In this document: piece after piece, positions 26,443 through 37,791 of the stretch
Position numbering within the stretch: position 1 is the stretch's first letter
Layout: each line of letters starts with the position of its first letter
NCBI RefSeq assembly: GCF_900101335.1
Contig: NZ_FNKA01000003.1
Span: forward strand, 558,001 to 622,000
Length of the DNA stretch: 64,000 nt
DNA from: Quadrisphaera sp. DSM 44207
GTDB lineage: Bacteria > Actinomycetota > Actinomycetes > Actinomycetales > Quadrisphaeraceae
Direction: 5' to 3'
Made by a program: the position numbers and the translations under genes
Notes under the pieces: generated by a model
What the model saw: only the letters and a program-made list of their open reading frames with translations
What the model was told of the DNA's origin: nothing
Databases searched by the model: none

Positions 26443-26522
26443 TTCGCATGTCCGGAGCCGGACGCCCCCACCGCAGCACGCACCACACCCCACCGCACCC
26501 CGTGGCCCCTCAGGAGGAGCCG

Positions 26523-28394
26523 ATGAGCAGCGCAGGAGCTGAGAAGCCGTCCGGAGCCGAGGGCGAGCGGATGACCGGGGCGAGCAGCCTCGTCCGCTCC
26601 CTCGAGCACGCCGGCGCCGAGGTCGTGTTCGGCCTCCCGGGCGGGGCGATCCTGCCCACCTACGACCCGCTGCTCGACAGCCCGTCCCTGCGCCACGTGC
26701 TGGTGCGCCACGAGCAGGGCGCCGGGCACGCCGCGCAGGGCTACGCCGCCGCCACCGGGCGCGTGGGGGTGTGCATGGCCACCTCGGGGCCGGGCGCGAC
26801 GAACCTGGTCACGGCCATCGCCGACGCGCACATGGACTCGGTGCCGATGGTGGCCGTCACGGGCCAGGTCTCCAGCAGCGCGATCGGCACGGACGCCTTC
26901 CAGGAGGCGGACATCCTCGGCGTCACCATGCCGATCACGAAGCACAACTACCTCGTGACGGACCCGGCGGACATCCCGCGCGTGGTCGCCGAGGCGTTCC
27001 ACATCGCCTCCACGGGCCGGCCGGGCCCGGTGCTGGTCGACGTCACCAAGGACGCCCAGCAGGCGATGACGACGTTCTCGTGGCCGCCCGCGCTCGACCT
27101 GCCGGGCTACCGGCCCGTGACCCGCCCGCACGGCAAGCAGGTGCGCGAGGCCGCCAAGCTGCTCGCCGGCGCGCGCCGCCCCGTGCTCTACGTCGGCGGC
27201 GGCGTGGTCCGGGCCGGCGCCAGCCCGCAGCTGCGCCAGCTCGTCGACCTCTCCGGCGCCCCGGCCGTGACGACGCTCATGGCCCGCGGGGCCCTGCCCG
27301 ACTCCCACCCGGCCAACCTCGGCATGCCCGGCATGCACGGCACGGTCGCGGCGGTGACGGCGCTGCAGAAGGCCGACCTCATCGTCAGCCTCGGCGCCCG
27401 CTTCGACGACCGCGTCACCGGTCAGCTGTCCACCTTCGCCCCGAACGCGGCGATCGTGCACGCGGACATCGACCCCGCGGAGATCGGCAAGAACCGGCGG
27501 GCGGACGTTCCGATCGTCGGGGACGCCCGCGAGGTGATCGCCGACCTCGTCGTCGCGCTGCGGGCCGAGCACGCCGCCGGCGTCCAGGCCGACCTGACGG
27601 AGTGGTGGCGCCAGCTCGACGCCCTGCGGCGCACCTACCCGCTCGGCTTCGACGAGCCGGACGACGGCACGCTGGCCCCGCAGCGGGTGATCCAGCGCCT
27701 GGGCGAGATCGCCGGGCCGGACGCCATCTACGCCTCCGGCGTCGGCCAGCACCAGATGTGGGCGGCGCAGTTCGTCAGGTACGAGAAGCCCGGCACGTGG
27801 CTGAACTCCGGCGGCCTGGGCACCATGGGCTACGCCGTCCCGGCGGCCATGGGCGCCAAGGTGGGCGTGCCCGACGCGACCGTGTGGGCGATCGACGGCG
27901 ACGGCTGCTTCCAGATGACGAACCAGGAGCTGGCCACCTGCGCCCTGAACGACATCCCGATCAAGGTCGCGGTGATCAACAACTCCAGCCTCGGGATGGT
28001 CCGCCAGTGGCAGACCCTCTTCTACGAGGGCCGCTACTCCAACACCGACCTGCACACCGGCGCCGCGGTCGAGCTGGGCCGGCGGATCCCGGACTTCGTC
28101 AAGCTCGCCGACGCCTACGGCTGCGTCGGGCTGCGCTGCGAGGACCCGGCGGACCTCGACGCCGTCATCGACAAGGCGATGTCGGTGGACGACCGCCCCG
28201 TGGTCGTCGACTTCGTCGTCCACCGCGACGCGATGGTGTGGCCGATGGTCGCCGCCGGGGTGAGCAACGACGCGATCCAGTACGCGCGCGGGCTGACCCC
28301 GGTGTGGGACCGCGACGAGTCCACCAGCCTGGAGAACGACGTCGAGCGCGAGCGCGACGCCGACCCGAGCGTCCCGACGGGGCAGAGCTGGTGA
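26523..28394 (+). CDS. ilvB: acetolactate synthase, catalytic subunit
   Basis: A 623-residue ThDP enzyme catalysing the first common step of valine/leucine and isoleucine synthesis. It shows [16 protein letters not shown], the catalytic Glu in [33 protein letters not shown] and the ThDP/Mg motif [12 protein letters not shown]...[13 protein letters not shown] start at ATG 26523 because AGGAGG lies 5-6 nt upstream; the frame is open to 26448 but those residues look non-coding. An N-terminal extension of about 18 residues precedes the domain. The stop overlaps ilvN (GTGA). Confidence 0.96.
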
Positions 28395-28903
28395 GCCGGC
28401 ACACGCTGTCGGTCCTCGTCGAGAACAAGCCCGCGGTCCTCACGCGCGTGGCGGCCCTGTTCGCCCGCCGCGGCTTCAACATCCACTCCCTGGCGGTGGG
28501 CCCGACCGAGCACGCGGACCTCTCGCGCATCACGGTCGTCGTCGACGTCGAGGCGCTGCCGCTGGAGCAGGTGACGAAGCAGCTGAACAAGCTCGTCAAC
28601 GTGCTCAAGGTCGTCGAGCTGGAGGAGGCCTCCTCGGTCCAGCGCGAGCTGCTGCTGGTCAAGGTGCGCGCCGACGCGGCCGCGCGCGGGCAGGTGGTCG
28701 ACGTGGTCTCCCTCTTCCGGGCGCACGTCGTCGACGTCGCGCCGGAGGCCCTCACGATCGAGGCGATCGGGGTGCCCGAGAAGAACGAGGCGCTGCTGCG
28801 GGTGCTGGAGCCCTTCGGCATCCGTGAGATCGTCCAGTCCGGCGTGGTCGCGCTGGGCCGGGGGAGCCGCTCGATCGCCGACCGGGCGCTGCGCAGCGCC
28901 TGA
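28391..28903 (+). CDS. ilvN: acetolactate synthase, regulatory subunit
   Basis: A 170-residue subunit that gives valine feedback control to IlvB. The N-terminal ACT domain reads [38 protein letters not shown], followed by the C-terminal ALS-SS domain ([43 protein letters not shown] in part). GTG 28391 overlaps the ilvB stop, so the two subunits are translationally coupled. Confidence 0.95.
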
Positions 28904-29995
<1,092 letters not shown>

Positions 29996-30010
29996 CCCCC
30001 GACGTCGCCG

Positions 30011-30047
30011 CGGCCCCGTCGTCCGCCGCGCGCGGACGGCGGGGCCG
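30011..30047 (+). terminator. terminator of ilvBNC
   Basis: Two 16-nt arms (CGGCCCCGTCGTCCGC and its partner, one T-G wobble) enclose CGCGC, 15 bp after the ilvC stop. Confidence 0.75.
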
Positions 30048-30108
30048 TGGTCGTCCTGCGCCGCACCGCCCCCAGCCGTGGTCGCCGGACAGGAGCAGGA
30101 GGCACCCC

Positions 30109-30630
30109 GTGGACGTTCCCGAGTTCTGGCAGCTCGCCCGTGCGCGCGCCGGCCTCGGCCGGCTCGCCGCGGTGGCGGGCGAGACGCCGTCCTCGGCGGT
30201 GCCGCCGCCGGCGTGGGCGTTCGGGCGGGACGCCGAGCAGGCGGACGAGCTGCTCGCGCTCGTCCTCGCCGGGCGCAAGACCGCCACGGCGTCGGCGCTG
30301 GTCGAGCACGCCGCCGAGGACGAGCCGCTCCCGCGGACGGGTGACCTGTCGATCGTGCTGGACGGCGCGGGCGAGCCCCGGGCCCTCGTCCGCACCACCG
30401 ACGTGCGCGTCGTCCGCTTCGCCGACGTGGACGCCGCGCACGCGGCGGCCGAGGGGGAGGGGCCGGCGACGCCGGCCTCCTGGCGCGCCGACCACGCGGC
30501 GTTCTGGGCCGACGCGGTGAGCGCCGCGGGGCTGGCCTCCGTGGACGACCTCGACGTGGTCCTCGAGCGCTTCGAGCTGCTGCACCCGCGCCCGCACGCG
30601 CGTGCGGGCGCGGGTGCAGCAGGCCGGTGA
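30109..30630 (+). CDS. ASCH-domain protein
   Basis: A 173-residue protein with an ASCH (PUA-like RNA-binding) domain. Recognisable parts are WAFGRDAEQADELLALVLAGRKTATASAL, PLPRTGDLSIVLDGAGEPRALVRTTDVRVVRFADV and SWRADHAAFW. Family members are thought to bind RNA or act as small hydrolases; the role here is unknown. GTG 30109 has AGGAGG about 8 nt upstream. The last 17 codons contain a 46-bp perfect palindrome, so the C-terminus HPRPHARAGAGAAGR is likely a by-product of terminator sequence. Confidence 0.8.
   Translation: MDVPEFWQLARARAGLGRLAAVAGETPSSAVPPPAWAFGRDAEQADELLALVLAGRKTATASALVEHAAEDEPLPRTGDLSIVLDGAGEPRALVRTTDVRVVRFADVDAAHAAAEGEGPATPASWRADHAAFWADAVSAAGLASVDDLDVVLERFELLHPRPHARAGAGAAGR
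30577..30622. repeat. 46-bp perfect palindrome, probable bidirectional terminator
   Basis: The sequence equals its own reverse complement over all 46 bases, centred on CACGCGCGTG at 30599/30600. It covers the 3' end of the ASCH gene and lies just past the natural end of the convergent VOC gene, the right place to stop both transcripts. Confidence 0.85.
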
Positions 30631-30634
30631 GCGC

Positions 30635-31083
30635 CTAGGACCGCTCGGCGGGACATCGGCGGGGACCTCGGCGGGGATGTTGACCATCCAGGTGGTGCCG
30701 AAGCGGTCGGTGAGCAGACCGAAGACGTCCCCCCAGGGCGCCGCCTCCAGCGGCACGTGCACCGCGCCGCCCTCGGACAGCCCGTCCCAGTAGCCGCGCA
30801 GCCGGGGCGCGTCGTCCGCGCTGTCGCCCGACAGCGAGATCGAGACCCCCTTCTGGCCGGTGTGCTCCGTGCTGTTCGGGGTGTCGGCGCCCATGAAGAC
30901 CAGGCCGTCGCCGGCGTCGAGCTGGCTGTGCATGATCTTGTCCTGCTCGGTCGGGTCCTCGCTGGCGTGGAAGTCGCCGAACGTCGACACCACCAGCTCC
31001 CCGCCGAAGACGGACCGGTAGAACTCCATCGCCTGCCGGGCGTCGTCGCGGAAGCTGAGGTAGGGGTTGAGAGCGACGGACAC
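30635..31083 (-). pseudogene. VOC-family (PhnB-like) protein with 3' frameshift
   Basis: A glyoxalase/bleomycin-resistance-fold protein of the PhnB type: [38 protein letters not shown], a middle with GDGLVFMGADTPNS and SISLSGDS, and an end WDGLSEGGAVHVPLEAAPWGDVFGLLTDRFGTTWMVNI. Function unknown. At 30650-30652 a GGG run stands where two neighbouring repeat copies have GGGG. Adding one base would end the protein at VPAERS and TAG (30635-30637), about 150 residues. As written the frame runs on to 29968 (371 residues) across the ASCH gene. Either a real frameshift near the end or a sequence error. The domain itself is intact. Confidence 0.7.
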
Positions 31084-31150
31084 GGCGGTTCCTCCTCCAG
31101 TGGGTGTGAGGGTGCAGACCGCCGCGGCGACGCGGAATCATCGGTGCTGG

Positions 31151-31561
31151 ATGATCGGTGCCGTGAGCCTGCCGACCAAGGACTGCGCCGTCTGCGGCCG
31201 CACGATCACGTGGCGCAAGAGGTGGGAGCGCGACTGGGACGCCGTCCGGTACTGCTCCGCCGCCTGCCGCCGCCGGGCCGGCAGCGCGCGGGCGCGGTCG
31301 GTGGACGCCGAGCTGGAGTCCGCGCTGGAGGCGCTGCTCGACGCGCGCGCGGTCACGTCGTCGGCGTGCCCGAGCGAGGCCGCGCGCGCCGTGGGCGGCG
31401 AGGGCTGGCGCGAGCTGATGGAGCCGGCGCGGGCCGCGGCACGGCGGATGGTCGCCGCCGGGCGCGCCGAGATCACCCAGCGCGGCGCGGTGGTGGACCC
31501 GAGCACCGCCCGCGGGCCGGTGCGGGTGCGCCGGCCTGCGGGGTGGAGCGCCCGCGCCTGA
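31151..31561 (+). CDS. DUF2256 plus DUF3253 protein
   Basis: A 136-residue protein joining two small families of unknown function. The N-terminal zinc-finger-like part is [36 protein letters not shown], with four cysteines as CxxC and CxxxC (DUF2256). The C-terminal part [23 protein letters not shown]...[30 protein letters not shown] matches DUF3253. The start may be ATG 31151 or GTG 31163 (MSLPTKDC); the frame is open to 31067, which is less likely. It is divergent from the VOC gene. Confidence 0.8.
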
Positions 31562-31591
31562 CCCGCCGCCGCACCACCGGCGGCCGAGCGC

Positions 31592-31693
31592 CTACCGCTT
31601 CCGCCTGACCTCGCCGTAGTGGAGCGCGGCCCACACCCCGACGACCGCGAGCAGCAGGACCAGACCGATCGGCACCCACAGGACGGTGTCCAT
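31592..31693 (-). CDS. 33-residue single-span membrane microprotein
   Basis: The peptide starts MDTVLWVPIGLVLLLAVVGV, then WAALHYGEVRRKR, then TAG. It has one transmembrane helix of about 20 residues followed by a basic tail, suggesting the C-terminus stays in the cytoplasm. GGAGGGGAG lies just before ATG 31693, a strong ribosome site, but that site is paired in a hairpin (31694-31717). It follows the APC permease and USP genes on the same strand by 96 bp. The family is not recognised; a small accessory subunit of a transporter is one idea. Confidence 0.6.
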   Translation of the reverse strand: MDTVLWVPIGLVLLLAVVGVWAALHYGEVRRKR

Positions 31694-31717
31694 GGCGCTC
31701 CCCTCCGAGGGGGCGCC
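31694..31717 (-). promoter_or_regulatory. hairpin masking the ribosome site of the microprotein
   Basis: On the minus strand GGCGCCCCCTC pairs with GAGGGGAGCGCC (one bulge), ending directly at ATG 31693. The Shine-Dalgarno is in the stem, so translation should depend on opening it. Confidence 0.5.
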
Positions 31718-31789
31718 ACGCCAGCGGGTTCCCGCGCCCGGGCCCAGGACCGCGCACCGGTCCCCGTGGCGGTGGGGACGGAGGGGGCG

Positions 31790-32248
31790 CTACTGCGCCT
31801 TCGGGCGCCAGACGAGCACGGGGCAGGGGGCGGAGTGCTGCACGCGCTGGGCGGTGGACCCGAGCAGCACGGTCTGGGTCAGCCCGGCGCTGCCGCTGGC
31901 CACGACGATGAGGTCGGCCGACAGCTCCTCGGCCGCCCGCACGATCTCGGCGGCCGCGGAGCCGCTGCGCACCTGCCGGTGCACGCTCGCGCCCCACTCC
32001 TCGAACTCGCCACCGACGACCCGGGTGGCGACCTCGGCCTCCTCGCGGAAGCTCAGGCTCGTGGGGTCCTGCACCGCCTGGTCCGGCGGCCTCAGCTCGT
32101 TGATGAAGGGCACGGCGGCCAGCGGGCTGACCACCGCGACGACGGTGACGTCGTCGATCTTCTCGGGTCCGGCGAAGGACTTCAGCTGGCGGGCGGCCTC
32201 CAGCGAGGCGTGCGAGCCGTCGGTGGCGATGACGACGTGCACGCTCAC
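31790..32248 (-). CDS. universal stress protein
   Basis: A 152-residue USP-A domain: VHVVIATDGSHASLEAARQL at the N-terminus, RSGSAAAEIVRAAEELSADLIVVASGSAGL in the helix-strand region and LGSTAQRVQHSAPCPVLVWRP at the end. The ATP-binding G-2x-G-9x-G(S/T) loop is only partly kept (ASGSAGLTQTVLLGSTA). Start GTG 32248 overlaps the APC permease stop, so it is translationally coupled and probably modulates that transporter or responds to the same stress. Confidence 0.85.
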   Translation of the reverse strand: MSVHVVIATDGSHASLEAARQLKSFAGPEKIDDVTVVAVVSPLAAVPFINELRPPDQAVQDPTSLSFREEAEVATRVVGGEFEEWGASVHRQVRSGSAAAEIVRAAEELSADLIVVASGSAGLTQTVLLGSTAQRVQHSAPCPVLVWRPKAQ

Positions 32249-33663
32249 AGCTCCTCGGCCGCGGTGGTCGGGTCGCGGTCGATGCGCCCGGGGCGCCGCC
32301 CGCGGCTGAAGTACTGGACCAGGAAGAGCACCAGGCCCACGGCGAGCAGCCCGGCCACCCACAGCAGCGCCGCGGGGTCGTCGACGACGATGTAGACGAG
32401 CAGCACCGCGTTGCCGAGGATCCCGAGGTAGAGCAGGGGCGTGCTGGCGCGGAACGTGTCCGGGCCCTCGTCCTGCCCGCGCAGCTTCAGCGCGGAGACG
32501 ATCACCAGCGCATAGATGAACACGAGGAAGACCACGGTCACGGTGGCCAGGCGGCCGACGACGTCCTCACCGCTGGCGGCGTTGATGACCGAGCCGATGA
32601 CCAGCAGCCCGGCCACGACGAGGAGGCCGAACGCCAGCGCGGCGGTCGGGCTGCGGCGCGTGGGGTGCACGCGGGCGAAGACGCGCGGGACGACGTCCAC
32701 GCGCCCCATGCCGTAGAGGATGCGCGACTGCGCCACGAGCGAGACCAGGGTGGTGTTGGTGATCGCGACCATGGCGATGAGCGAGAAGACGATGATCATG
32801 ATGCCGACCGGCACCGGGAGGACGCCGGCGCGCACGACCTCCAGCAGGGCCGCGTCCGCGCCCGCGAGGACGTCCACCGGCACGACCAGGGCGGCGGTCA
32901 TGGCGACGAGGACGTAGATGGCGCCCGCCGCGAGCATGCCCCCGACCAGCGCCCGCGGGAACGTCCGCGCCGGGTCGACGGTCTCCTCGGCGACGTTGGC
33001 GGCGTTCTCGAAGCCCGTCATGGCGAAGAAGGAGAGGGCGACGCCGGCGATGATCGCGAAGATCGTGTTCTGGTCGCCGGTGTTGAACTGCGTCAGGACG
33101 CCGAAGTCCGCGTCGCCGCGGGCCACGTGGACGATGCCGATGAGCAGGACGATCGCCAGGCCGGTGACCTCGACGAACGTCATGACCATGTTGGCGATGA
33201 CCGACTCGGTGATGCCGATGTAGTTGACGATCGTCAGGAGCGTGACGAAGACCAGCGTGACCAGCAGCGGGGGCGGCAGCTCGAAGACGGACCCGAAGTA
33301 GCGGGCGAAGCCGCTGGCCAGGGAGCCGGAGGCGGCGAAGAGGGCCGACAGCGTGCAGATGGTGATGAAGAACGTCAGCACGGGGTTGCGGAACGCCTTG
33401 TTGACGTAGAGGGAGGCCCCGGCGGCCTGCGGGTACTTCGTCACCAGCTCCGCGTACGCGAGCCCGGTGATCGCCGCGACCGCCACCCCCACGGCGAACG
33501 CGATCCAGAAGGCCCCGCCCACGGCCCCGGCGACGAGGCCGATGAGCACGTAGATGCCCGAGCCGAGCACGTCGCCCAGCACGTAGAAGAACAGCAGGCG
33601 GCCGGTGATCGACCGCTTGAGCTCGGGCGGGTCGGCGCGTCCGGTGTCCTCGGCAGTGGCCAC
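32245..33663 (-). CDS. APC-family amino acid permease
   Basis: A 472-residue integral membrane protein with about 12 helices. The N-terminal block LLFFYVLGDVLGSGIYVLIGLVAGAVGGAFWIAF carries the GSGIY substrate-binding turn of the APC superfamily; FFAMTGFENAANVAEET is the helix-6 region. Substrate unknown. GTG 33663 is the start. The C-terminus is charged and cytoplasmic (RGRRPGRIDRDPTTAAEEL). Coupled to the USP gene by a GTGA overlap; the DUF2252 gene lies upstream on the same strand, 105 bp away. Confidence 0.9.
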   Translation of the reverse strand: MATAEDTGRADPPELKRSITGRLLFFYVLGDVLGSGIYVLIGLVAGAVGGAFWIAFAVGVAVAAITGLAYAELVTKYPQAAGASLYVNKAFRNPVLTFFITICTLSALFAASGSLASGFARYFGSVFELPPPLLVTLVFVTLLTIVNYIGITESVIANMVMTFVEVTGLAIVLLIGIVHVARGDADFGVLTQFNTGDQNTIFAIIAGVALSFFAMTGFENAANVAEETVDPARTFPRALVGGMLAAGAIYVLVAMTAALVVPVDVLAGADAALLEVVRAGVLPVPVGIMIIVFSLIAMVAITNTTLVSLVAQSRILYGMGRVDVVPRVFARVHPTRRSPTAALAFGLLVVAGLLVIGSVINAASGEDVVGRLATVTVVFLVFIYALVIVSALKLRGQDEGPDTFRASTPLLYLGILGNAVLLVYIVVDDPAALLWVAGLLAVGLVLFLVQYFSRGRRPGRIDRDPTTAAEEL

Positions 33664-33725
33664 GGCCCCTTCCTACTCCTCTCGGGGCGCCCGCGCCGCT
33701 GCAGAGGTGTGACAGGTGTGGACGA

Positions 33726-33775
33726 GCCCGGCTCCGGACCCGGCCTCGGACCCCGCCTCGGACCCGGCTCAGACC
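33726..33775 (-). repeat. degenerate 12-bp GC repeat between DUF2252 and APC genes
   Basis: About four copies of a CGGACCCGGCCT-like unit lie at the DUF2252 stop and in the spacer. No regulatory meaning is evident. Confidence 0.5.
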
Positions 33776-35196
33776 CCGTGCTCGACGGGCAGCTCGCCGC
33801 GGGCGACGGCCGCGACGAGGGCGGCGTGGTCGCGCTCGGTCTGGTCGGCGTAGGCGCGCGCGAAGGCGCACAGGGCCGCGTCGGCGGCCTCGGAGCGGCC
33901 GAGGTACCCGGCGATCATGGACGCTCCGGAGGTGCGCGCGTGGCCCTTGGCGAGCAGGCGCCCGCAGATGCCGGCGTAGTCGGCCAGGGCCGCGGCGTCG
34001 ATGCCGTCGAGGACGACGCTGCCCTTCATGTTCCGGAACTGGCGCACGTAGTACTGGCGCTCCCCGACGCTCGTCCAGCCCAGCAGCGGGTCGGAGGCGG
34101 TCTGCAGGTCCTGCTGGTACTCCACCACCCGCTGGCCCTGGTGGGCGTGCCAGGCGGAGTCGCCGTGCACGAACGGCGCGACCACCGAGCGCCGCGCCTG
34201 CTTGAGCTGGAGGAAGACGACGTCGTCCTCGCTGCTGCCCTCCAGCAGCGCCACGTAGGCGCGCAGGCCCACGCTGCCCACGCCGACGACCTTGTGGGCG
34301 ACGTCCACGAGCGTGTACCCGCCGAGCACGCGGGCCCAGTGCGGCGACAGGGTGCGCAGGTAGTCGTCGAGGGCGTCGGCGAGCAGGTCGGCGTCGTCCG
34401 GCTCGGGGCGGGTGATCAGCGGGGGTTCCTCGACGATGCGGCGCGCGCCGTCGCGCCGCTCGGTGAAGCGGGGGAGCGCCCGGTCGCTCGTGCGCCGCTG
34501 GGCGCGGGCGGCCGAGCGCTCGATCTCCCGGCGCAGGCCCGGGTCGGAGGCGGTGGCGGTCAGGCGGTCCAGGTCCAGGCCCTCGAAGGAGCGCTCCAGC
34601 AGCGGCCGGGCGGACAGGTCCCGCAGGTGGCGGCGGTAGGCCCCCACCGCGGACGCCGTCGCCGCCTCGCACGCGTCCTCGCCCATCGAGGCGCCCCGGC
34701 CGGCGACCCAGATGCTGGCCGCGAGCCGGCGCAGGTCCCACTCCCAGGGCCCCGGGTGGGCCTCGTCGAAGTCGTTGAGGTCGAGCACGAGGTCGCGCGA
34801 GGGGGAGCCGTAGAAGCCGATGTTGCCCACGTGCGCGTCGCCGCAGATGACGGGCGTGATGCCGGTGGCGGACAGGGAGGAGGAGTCCTCGGCCATGACG
34901 CCGGCGGCGCCGCGCAGGAACCCGTACGGGGAGGCCGCCATGCGCCCCACCCGCACCGGCACCAGCCGCTCCAGGCGGCCCTCGTGCGCTGCGCGCACCT
35001 GGGCCACGACGTCGCGCCGGTCGGCCGGCGGCTCCCAGCGCGCCAGGGAGGCGCGCGGCACCCGCTCCCGCAGCGCCTTGCCGAGCGCGTACCGCTGCGC
35101 GCGGGGCACGGGGCGCTCGCGCAGCGAGCCGTAGGCGCTGGGGTCGGCCTGCGGCAGGACGACGTGGCCCCGGGCCGGGCCGGAGGTGCTGGTCAC
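33769..35196 (-). CDS. DUF2252 family protein
   Basis: A 475-residue protein with the DUF2252 pattern: RMAASPYGFLRGAAGVMAED, ICGDAHVGNIGFYGSPSRDLVLDLNDFDEAHPGPWEWDL, and a later DVAHKVVGVGSVGLRAYVALLEG. The GDAHVGN...DLNDFDE arrangement resembles the HxDxxxxN / DF-D catalytic pairs of aminoglycoside-phosphotransferase-like kinases, so a kinase-like fold is likely; the substrate is unknown. GTG 35196 is preceded by GGGAG. The C-terminus lies 105 bp before the APC permease start on the same strand. Confidence 0.85.
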   Translation of the reverse strand: MTSTSGPARGHVVLPQADPSAYGSLRERPVPRAQRYALGKALRERVPRASLARWEPPADRRDVVAQVRAAHEGRLERLVPVRVGRMAASPYGFLRGAAGVMAEDSSSLSATGITPVICGDAHVGNIGFYGSPSRDLVLDLNDFDEAHPGPWEWDLRRLAASIWVAGRGASMGEDACEAATASAVGAYRRHLRDLSARPLLERSFEGLDLDRLTATASDPGLRREIERSAARAQRRTSDRALPRFTERRDGARRIVEEPPLITRPEPDDADLLADALDDYLRTLSPHWARVLGGYTLVDVAHKVVGVGSVGLRAYVALLEGSSEDDVVFLQLKQARRSVVAPFVHGDSAWHAHQGQRVVEYQQDLQTASDPLLGWTSVGERQYYVRQFRNMKGSVVLDGIDAAALADYAGICGRLLAKGHARTSGASMIAGYLGRSEAADAALCAFARAYADQTERDHAALVAAVARGELPVEHGV

Positions 35197-35237
35197 GGCG
35201 CACACGCTCCCACGGGCGGAGCGCCGCGCGCGCCGGG

Positions 35238-35549
35238 CTACGACGCGGTCGGGCCGGCCTGGTGGACGACCTCGAACTCCAGCAGGCTCGCGCCGGTGGC
35301 GACCGGGCGCGCCCGCTCCCCGGCGTGGGCCTCGCGGGCCCCGCCGCCCGACCACGCCCGGAACGCCTCGTCCGACTCCCACCGGGTGTAGACGAAGTAG
35401 CGGGACTCGCCCGCCACCGGGCGCAGCAGCTCGAAGCCCAGGAACCCCGGCGTCCCCTCGACGGCGCCGAGCCGGGCGGCGAAGCGCCGCTCCAGCTCCT
35501 CGCCGCCGCCGGGCGGGACGTCGATGGCGTTGATCTTCACGACGGCCAT
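35238..35549 (-). CDS. antibiotic-biosynthesis-monooxygenase fold protein, IsdG/MhuD-like
   Basis: A 103-residue ABM-domain protein: [59 protein letters not shown]. Asn 7, the Trp in [11 protein letters not shown] and the His in REAHAGE match the Asn-Trp-His set of IsdG/MhuD heme-degrading enzymes, so heme breakdown is plausible but not proven. It acts as a dimer in the family. It is divergent from leuB with 62 bp between them. Confidence 0.75.
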
Positions 35550-35597
35550 CGCGCCAGCCTGGCACGCACCGCCGGCCCCCGCCCGCCCCGCCCTGGC

Positions 35598-35603
35598 TAG
35601 GCT
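35598..35603 (+). promoter_or_regulatory. leaderless -10 of leuB (TAGGCT)
   Basis: TAGGCT ends 8 nt before ATG 35612, with no ribosome site between. Confidence 0.6.
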
Positions 35604-35611
35604 CGCCGCCC

Positions 35612-36670
35612 ATGACGACCCCCGCCAGTGCCCCCGACGCCCTGCGCCTCGCCGTCGTGGCGGGGGACGGGATCGGACCGGAGGTGGTGGCGGAGGGCCT
35701 GAAGGTGCTCGCGGCCGCGACGGCGCCGGAGGGCACCCGCGTGGAGACCACCGACTACGACCTCGGCGCGCGCCGCTGGCGCGCCACCGGCGAGACCCTG
35801 CCGGACGGCGTGCTGGAGGAGGTGCGCGCCTGCGACGCGATCCTGCTCGGCGCGATCGGGGACCCGGGCGTGCCGAGCGGCGTCCTCGAGCGCGGCCTGC
35901 TGCTGCGGCTGCGCTTCGAGCTCGACCACTACGTCAACCTGCGCCCCGGCCGCCTCTACCCGGGCGTGCGCTCGCCGCTGGCCGACCCCGGCGACGTCGA
36001 CTTCGTCGTCGTGCGCGAGGGCACCGAGGGCCCCTACACCGGCAACGGCGGGTCGATCCGCACCGGCACGCCCCACGAGATCGCCACCGAGGTCAGCCTC
36101 AACACCGCCTTCGGCGTCGAGCGCGTCGTCCGCGACGCCTTCGCCCGCGCCGCCGCGCGCCCGCGCAGGAAGCTCACCCTGGTGCACAAGCACAACGTCC
36201 TCACCCACGCCGGGCACCTGTGGCGGCGCACCGTGGAGGCGGTGGGCGCCGAGCACCCGGACGTGACCGTCGACTACCTGCACGTGGACGCCGCGACGAT
36301 CTTCCTGGTCACGGACCCGGCGCGCTTCGACGTGGTCGTCACCGACAACCTCTTCGGCGACATCGTCACCGACCTGGCCGCCGCCGTGTGCGGGGGCATC
36401 GGGCTCGCGGCCTCCGGCAGCATCAACCCCGACCGCACCGCGCCGAGCATGTTCGAGCCGGTGCACGGCTCGGCCCCCGACATCGCCGGGCAGGGCGTCG
36501 CCGACCCCACCGCCACCGTGCTCTCCGTGGCGCTGCTGCTGGAGCACGTGGGCCTGAGCGCCGCGGCCCGGCGCGTGGAGGCCGCCGTCGCCGCCGACCT
36601 GGCCGAGCGCGGCGGCGCGCGCCGCCGCACCGGCGAGGTCGGGGACGCCATCGCCTCGCGCCTGGCCTGA
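35612..36670 (+). CDS. leuB: 3-isopropylmalate dehydrogenase
   Basis: A 352-residue NAD-dependent oxidative decarboxylase of leucine synthesis. It shows [21 protein letters not shown], the substrate loop [37 protein letters not shown], the Lys region [11 protein letters not shown], the metal Asp block [20 protein letters not shown] and the NAD block [22 protein letters not shown]. The ATG is set by TAGGCT. It leads leuB-ilvE-cimA, each with its own start signal and short spacing. Confidence 0.95.
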
Positions 36671-36683
36671 CGCCCCGGTCGGC

Positions 36684-36689
36684 TACGGT
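36684..36689 (+). promoter_or_regulatory. leaderless -10 of ilvE (TACGGT)
   Basis: TACGGT ends 7 nt before ATG 36697, in the 26-bp gap after leuB. Confidence 0.55.
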
Positions 36690-36696
36690 TCCGCGC

Positions 36697-37791
36697 ATGA
36701 GCGCCCCGCTGGTCTTCGAGCACCGGGCCAACCCGGCCCCGCTGCCCGCCGAGGAGCGGGCGCGGGTGCTCGCGGCGCCCGGCTTCGGCCGGCACTTCAC
36801 CGACCACATGGTGCGCGCCACCTGGACGGCGGAGGACGGCTGGCACGACGCCCGGGTGGAGGCCTACGGCCCCCTGCAGCTGGACCCGAGCGCCGCCGTC
36901 CTGCACTACGCGCAGGAGGTCTTCGAGGGCCTGAAGGCCTACCGCTGGGAGGACGGGTCGGTCTGGTCCTTCCGCCCCCGGGCCAACGCCGCCCGCCTCG
37001 CGCGCTCGGCGCGGCGCCTGGCCCTGCCCGAGCTGTCCGAGGCCGACTTCCTCGCCTCCCTGCACGCCCTCGTCGAGGCGGACGCCGCGTGGGTGCCCAG
37101 CGGCGGGGAGACGAGCCTGTACCTGCGCCCCTTCATGTTCGCCTCCGAGGCCTTCCTCGGCGTGCGGGCCGCCGCGCGCGTGGACTACCTCGTCATCGCC
37201 TCCCCGGCGGGCTCGTACTTCACCGGCGGGCTGAAGCCGGTCTCGATCTGGCTCTCGCGCGACCACGCGCGCGCGGCCCCGGGCGGCCTCGGCGCGGCCA
37301 AGACCGGCGGCAACTACGCGGCCAGCCTGCTCCCCCAGCAGCAGGCCGCCGAGCACGGCTGCGAGCAGGTGTGCTTCCTCGACGCCGCCGAGCGCACGTG
37401 GGTGGAGGAGCTGGGCGGCATGAACGTCTACTTCGTCCACGCCGACGGCACCCTCGTCACGCCCGCGCTGACCGGCACCATCCTCGAGGGCGTCACGCGC
37501 GACGCGATCCTGCAGCTGGCGGGCGAGGTGGGCCTGCGCCCGGTCGAGCGCCGCGTCTCGGTGCAGGAGTGGAAGGACGGCGCCGCCTCCGGGGAGATCA
37601 CCGAGGTCTTCGCGTGCGGCACCGCGGCCGTCGTCACCCCGATCGGGCGCCTCGTGGACGGCGAGGAGGAGGTCGTCCCGCGCGGCGGCGCCGAGGCCGG
37701 CGAGGTCACCGAGCGGATCCGCGCGGCCCTGCTCGACGTCCAGCACGGCCGCGCGCAGGACCGCCACGGCTGGATGCACCGCCTCCTCTGA
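36697..37791 (+). CDS. ilvE: branched-chain amino acid aminotransferase
   Basis: A 364-residue fold-type IV PLP transaminase for the last step to Val, Leu and Ile. The family blocks are HYAQEVFEGLKAYR, RPFMFASEAFLGVRAA, the PLP Lys in GGLGAAKTGGNYAASLLPQ, WVEELGGMNVYFV and the phosphate loop EVFACGTAAVVTPIG. Length fits the group I eukaryote-like/mycobacterial BCAT. ATG 36697 is preceded by TACGGT; the frame is open upstream only as leuB out-of-frame translation. Confidence 0.95.
   Translation: MSAPLVFEHRANPAPLPAEERARVLAAPGFGRHFTDHMVRATWTAEDGWHDARVEAYGPLQLDPSAAVLHYAQEVFEGLKAYRWEDGSVWSFRPRANAARLARSARRLALPELSEADFLASLHALVEADAAWVPSGGETSLYLRPFMFASEAFLGVRAAARVDYLVIASPAGSYFTGGLKPVSIWLSRDHARAAPGGLGAAKTGGNYAASLLPQQQAAEHGCEQVCFLDAAERTWVEELGGMNVYFVHADGTLVTPALTGTILEGVTRDAILQLAGEVGLRPVERRVSVQEWKDGAASGEITEVFACGTAAVVTPIGRLVDGEEEVVPRGGAEAGEVTERIRAALLDVQHGRAQDRHGWMHRLL

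Follow-up and report, generated by a model that had tools for sequence, protein, structure and literature searches.

A putative lineage-specific single-pass microprotein gene, with its start site in a predicted hairpin, next to a permease and universal stress protein unit of Quadrisphaera sp. DSM 44207

The locus

In Quadrisphaera sp. DSM 44207, a reading frame of 33 codons follows the genes of an amino acid permease and a universal stress protein (USP), and its ribosome-binding site lies in a predicted hairpin. The locus raises the question of whether this frame is a real membrane microprotein gene, whether its product acts on the permease, and whether the hairpin controls its translation. 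The window, that is the whole stretch of DNA analysed, is 64,000 nt long and contains these features:

31067..31561, plus strand: convergent DUF2256-DUF3253 gene (Pfam DUF3253 4.6e-26, DUF2256 7.9e-18); the coordinates are those of the longest open frame, and the true start is probably further in
31592..31693, minus strand: microprotein ORF, 33 codons, one predicted transmembrane helix at about residues 4-24, C-terminal RRKR
31691..31720, either strand possible: near-palindromic hairpin covering the Shine-Dalgarno (SD) sequence and the ATG, its stem of 13 base pairs carrying a single bulged A and its loop reading CGG
31700..31706, minus strand: SD sequence GGAGGGG, read directly, its end 6 nt before the ATG
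31790..32248, minus strand: USP gene (Pfam Usp 1.8e-21), stop codon at 31790-31792
32245..33663, minus strand: APC-superfamily amino acid permease (Pfam AA_permease_2 3.7e-43), its end overlapping the USP start

The position 3' of an APC permease and a stress protein gene, as given in the initial annotation, is borne out by the Pfam matches, and the distance from the USP stop codon to the microprotein ATG is 96 nt. As for the wider surroundings, the permease-USP unit lies among what we take to be branched-chain amino acid genes (26448-37791): presumably acetolactate synthase (26448-28394), ketol-acid reductoisomerase (28949-29995) and isopropylmalate dehydrogenase (35612-36670), the last followed by a presumed aminotransferase. 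The reductoisomerase is also near the permease-USP pair in three other genomes (L064, L066 and L073). Branched-chain amino acids may be the substrate of the permease, whose match to BcaP (1.5e-26) is far below the cutoff.

The open reading frame and its coding potential

The frame starts with ATG, has no in-frame ATG, GTG or TTG 5' of this start, and encodes the 33 residues MDTVLWVPIGLVLLLAVVGVWAALHYGEVRRKR. Its maximal Kyte-Doolittle value over 19 residues (KD19) is 2.53; together with the C-terminal RRKR, this bears out the small membrane protein with one helix and a basic tail that had been proposed, and places it by hydropathy prediction in the single-helix class (one transmembrane helix, fewer than about 60 residues). 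The product is probably a one-helix membrane protein, for which the positive-inside rule predicts an N-out/C-in topology. The strong GGAGGGG site was likewise found, at a spacing of 6 nt from the ATG.

Regarding composition, GC at the three codon positions is 25, 13 and 32 of 33 (76/39/97%), near the values of the permease gene (68/44/99%), and this membrane-gene-like pattern is missing in the same frame 5' of the ATG (82/76/91%). Against the 76.6% GC background, the probability of at most 13 GC at position 2 is 5e-6, a figure inflated by the fact that hydrophobicity was among the reasons for picking this ORF, and that of at least 32 at position 3 is 0.0017. The full codon score is equalled by one of the 37 other intergenic small ORFs of the window; synonymous codon choice alone is unexceptional, with 10 of the 37 scoring equally.

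Chance frames of this hydrophobicity are rare. In 2 Mb of intergenic sequence simulated with a first-order Markov model trained on the noncoding DNA of the window, there were 7053 ORFs of 25-60 aa, one with a KD19 of at least 1.9 and none with 2.5 or more; an earlier 3 Mb simulation gave no transmembrane-like small ORF. The window itself holds four such ORFs, among which the microprotein ORF alone lies outside called genes and alone has an SD sequence, the other three overlapping called genes by 100, 100 and 76%. In 79 of 80 actinobacterial loci (860,635 bases, L136 excluded), two intergenic small ORFs had a KD19 of at least 1.9, one of them with an SD sequence. A chance open frame is thus unlikely on these compositional data, and the ORF is probably a real microprotein gene because its codon-position GC is membrane-gene-like from the ATG on and no simulated ORF was equally hydrophobic. 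A scan of 30500-34000 for sigma-70-type promoters, which is ill-suited to actinobacteria, found none.

Distribution among relatives and at equivalent loci

In tblastn searches the full peptide was matched in its own genome only. Among 59 relatives, 24 others gave matches at E ≤1 (best 0.009); among 396 genomes of the order, five others reached E ≤0.02 (best 3.3e-4); and among 394 genomes of the class, nothing beyond the own genome appeared at 0.005. It should be noted that the three samples overlap, and that each covers part of its group. The five order-level matches were rejected as chance. The best, L141, has its E value of 3.3e-4 per genome, or ~0.13 after multiplication by the number of genomes, and corresponds to the start of a longer charged protein that begins MDT.W like the microprotein. 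Those in L142, L144 and L143 lie within open frames of 325, 517 and 746 aa, and that in L002 in a 100-aa frame.

Plasmids and phages gave no match at E 1, and the best matches among solved structures and PHROGs had E values of 0.64 and 0.1. The DNA of the gap (31562-31792, including the USP stop codon) gave, among the matches listed from the own genome and 39 genomes, only short GC-rich ones apart from itself. The helix resembles a segment inside permease paralogues of L049, L052, L053 and L054 (45-55% identity over 22 residues, E 0.014-0.9), which is probably generic hydrophobic similarity.

The permease-USP pair is widespread, with 64 distinct loci among the 80 genome-contig loci analysed, and the microprotein was found in 0 of these 64 by a small-ORF scan and direct tblastn. 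The scan comprised 68 rows and covered 600 bp past the USP gene on the same strand (128 bp in L068); the duplicates L032/L065, L033/L073, L034/L064 and L035/L066 reduce the rows to 64 distinct loci. Some small transmembrane-like ORF is present in 33 of the 68 rows, none resembling the microprotein by eye; 31 of these are, also by eye, fragments of a ~117-aa Nocardioides protein, the other two being in L114 and L124. In the direct search of 109 loci, with the window as control, the best match listed outside the control had an E value of 0.014. Conserved copies beside APC-USP genes, for which the initial annotation had suggested a tblastn search, were not found in any of the 64 distinct loci.

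In 21 of the 64 loci (Nocardioides and relatives, L061-L140; a count resting on a strict C-terminal motif), the USP gene is followed by this conserved ~117-aa protein, METLRLVLLFVHILG..., which has several hydrophobic stretches and by eye is unrelated to the microprotein. In several of its genes the likely start is preceded within a few bases by a TAGGGT-like box, as in leaderless transcripts.

Of the 12 family members sampled, four have a permease orthologue (73-76% identity); the other eight were probed by genome-wide tblastn only. After the USP gene, L064 (Quadrisphaera granulorum) has a gap of 18 nt, L066 of 3 nt and L073 of 51 nt, each followed by the same convergent DUF3253 gene; in L065, 13 nt separate the USP gene from a different gene. 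The source genome has 228 nt at this place, and the gaps of 3-51 nt in the four family members are too short for the microprotein ORF, which thus occupies roughly 200 bp that they lack. At the family level, neither tblastn nor locus comparison thus found the frame conserved in close relatives, the outcome set beforehand as refuting the initial annotation; the genus is represented by one genome, the source. As far as the sampled relatives, order and class reach, the microprotein is probably a lineage-specific orphan.

The hairpin over the start site

The 26-nt core of the hairpin has a predicted energy of -19.7 kcal/mol, and a 38-nt window one of -24.4. The initial annotation had a stem that pairs exactly the SD sequence and ends at the ATG; the hairpin is there, and the details differ: five of the seven SD bases (AGGGG) are paired, the loop takes up the leading GG, and pairing extends over all three bases of the ATG. 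The core (31693-31718) has no second copy in the assembly at up to 3 mismatches, and no tandem repeats were found in 31000-32500. The segment GCGCCCCCTC is present twice on the minus strand, at the USP stop (31781-31790) and in the left arm of the hairpin (31707-31716); the copy at the USP stop, part of an inverted repeat, offers the SD sequence another potential anti-SD partner 71 nt upstream.

For such GC-rich DNA a hairpin of this kind is not unusual, and the comparisons made do not point to dedicated regulation. Stretches of 30 nt at or below -19.7 kcal/mol form 151 clusters over the 64 kb, a density of roughly one in 424 bp, alike inside called genes and between them, and the dinucleotide-shuffle z-scores of the hairpin are only -0.85 and -1.27. 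Random leaders were also placed before the native SD-ATG segment: of 3000, 1292 paired at least five of the seven SD bases upstream, 123 of them also paired the ATG fully, and 2 had in addition an energy as low as the real one or lower, a criterion chosen after the structure had been seen; the SD heptamer was fully paired in 116 of 2000 random leaders, while only five of its seven bases are paired in the native one.

Because the loop contains two bases of the SD sequence, its accessibility as a function of temperature and 5' end was uninformative, and the cost of opening was used instead. Freeing the stretch from SD to ATG costs 14.3 kcal/mol. Of 1000 random leaders, 119 cost at least as much. 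The median over 41 called gene starts is 9.0, and the top six starts, at 15.6 to 17.2, are all costlier to open than that of the microprotein. Two observations speak for something out of the ordinary, both by criteria chosen post hoc: the 2 of 3000 random leaders above, and the energy of the 38-nt window (-24.4 kcal/mol), which is not reached at any of 42 called starts (mean -12.2). The comparisons with called starts are affected by the gene list, which comprises 42 genes from a crude caller and includes some longest-ORF starts instead of true ones (e.g., 31790-32362). For temperatures of 20, 45 and 65 °C, the predicted costs are 17.4, 12.9 and 9.3 kcal/mol, so that across physiological temperatures the SD sequence is not predicted to be freed. 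An RNA thermometer is thus unlikely, the modelled cost declining too slowly with temperature, and an Rfam search of 31000-34000 gave no match up to E 1. Hence the conditional translation initially proposed did not find support, with at least six called starts of the window costlier to open and a weak effect of temperature.

Interpretation

The explanation that we cautiously favour, at slightly better than even confidence, is a genuine lineage-specific single-pass microprotein gene with its own SD sequence, whose hairpin lowers initiation without being a dedicated switch. The gene would sit in the roughly 200 bp that separate the USP gene from the DUF3253 gene converging on it, DNA that is missing in family members, and would be translated from its own SD sequence. 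The hairpin over SD and ATG would keep initiation low, as predicted for other starts in this very GC-rich genome; translation may even be very low, since both elements are in a stable predicted stem, which may double as a 3' hairpin for the USP or DUF3253 transcripts. The product would most likely adjoin an inner-membrane protein and have a mild tuning effect on this putative partner, for which the upstream permease is one candidate, named solely for its adjacency.

The main competitor, appreciably less probable yet a serious one, is that the hairpin serves the USP and DUF3253 genes, which converge on it, as a bidirectional transcription terminator; the ORF would then be untranslated or a chance frame, and the SD sequence simply the G-rich arm of the palindrome. 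The near-palindromic structure between convergent genes fits this, the abundance of such hairpins makes one in the gap unsurprising, and the ORF is missing at the equivalent site in the four family members. However, the ORF has a membrane-gene-like composition that simulation did not reproduce, the hairpin begins 69 nt beyond the USP stop, and a scan of 30500-34000, which covers T-run terminators only, found 0. Moreover, convergent gaps are not clearly enriched in such structures: hairpins at or below -19.7 kcal/mol occur in 3 of 5 other convergent gaps (picked by hand from the hairpin listing) versus 8 of 16 non-convergent gaps above 40 bp. A terminator role of the hairpin is possible, and nothing specially indicates it.

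The reading in the initial annotation, in which the APC permease would have the microprotein as its accessory subunit or regulator and translation would await opening of the hairpin, is improbable. The gene is on the same strand, 96 nt past the USP stop in the permease-USP unit, and one-helix proteins acting on transporters exist, e.g., AcrZ on AcrB (PMC7267776); nonetheless, the absence from the 64 distinct loci leaves such a role unsupported and a conjecture from adjacency, and the opening cost is unexceptional and weakly sensitive to temperature. We hold a recently arisen, genus-specific modulator of the old permease-USP unit, its dose limited by sequestration of the start site, to be quite improbable as well. 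Finally, a remnant of a larger membrane-protein gene brought into the gap would agree with membrane-gene composition within DNA missing in family members, but it is very improbable, as the composition turns coding-like at an ATG that has an SD sequence and the own genome contains no long paralogous stretch of the gap DNA (best match after the gap itself, 84% over 41 of its 231 nt).

If translated, the favoured single-pass microprotein would be another orphan of a class often missed by annotation. It could then also serve as a modest model of how new membrane genes arise at very high genomic GC, a setting in which hydrophobic ORFs seldom occur by chance.

Comparison with known systems

SD-sequestering hairpins and RNA thermometers are a known regulatory class, and the locus is like them in having SD and ATG within a predicted stem; it differs from them in the predicted stability of the hairpin, which is too high for melting at physiological temperatures, and in having no Rfam match.

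As for protein families, PspB (PF06667; NF006993) is the best Pfam and the sole NCBIfam match, spanning most of the microprotein with E values of 0.055 and 0.036, respectively; the scores are below the curated cutoffs (14 bits versus 25.6 for Pfam, 14.4 versus 90 for NCBIfam), and the models have lengths of 73 and 75 against 33 aa.

KdpF, MgtS and MetS are single-helix small proteins associated with transporters. AcrZ is a small one-helix protein that acts on AcrB (PMC7267776). Unlike proteins of the AcrZ type, the microprotein has no Pfam or NCBIfam match above cutoff and no conserved transporter neighbourhood, as the 64 permease-USP loci indicate; it is like AcrZ, KdpF, MgtS and MetS in its short length, its one hydrophobic helix, and a transporter gene nearby or as target.
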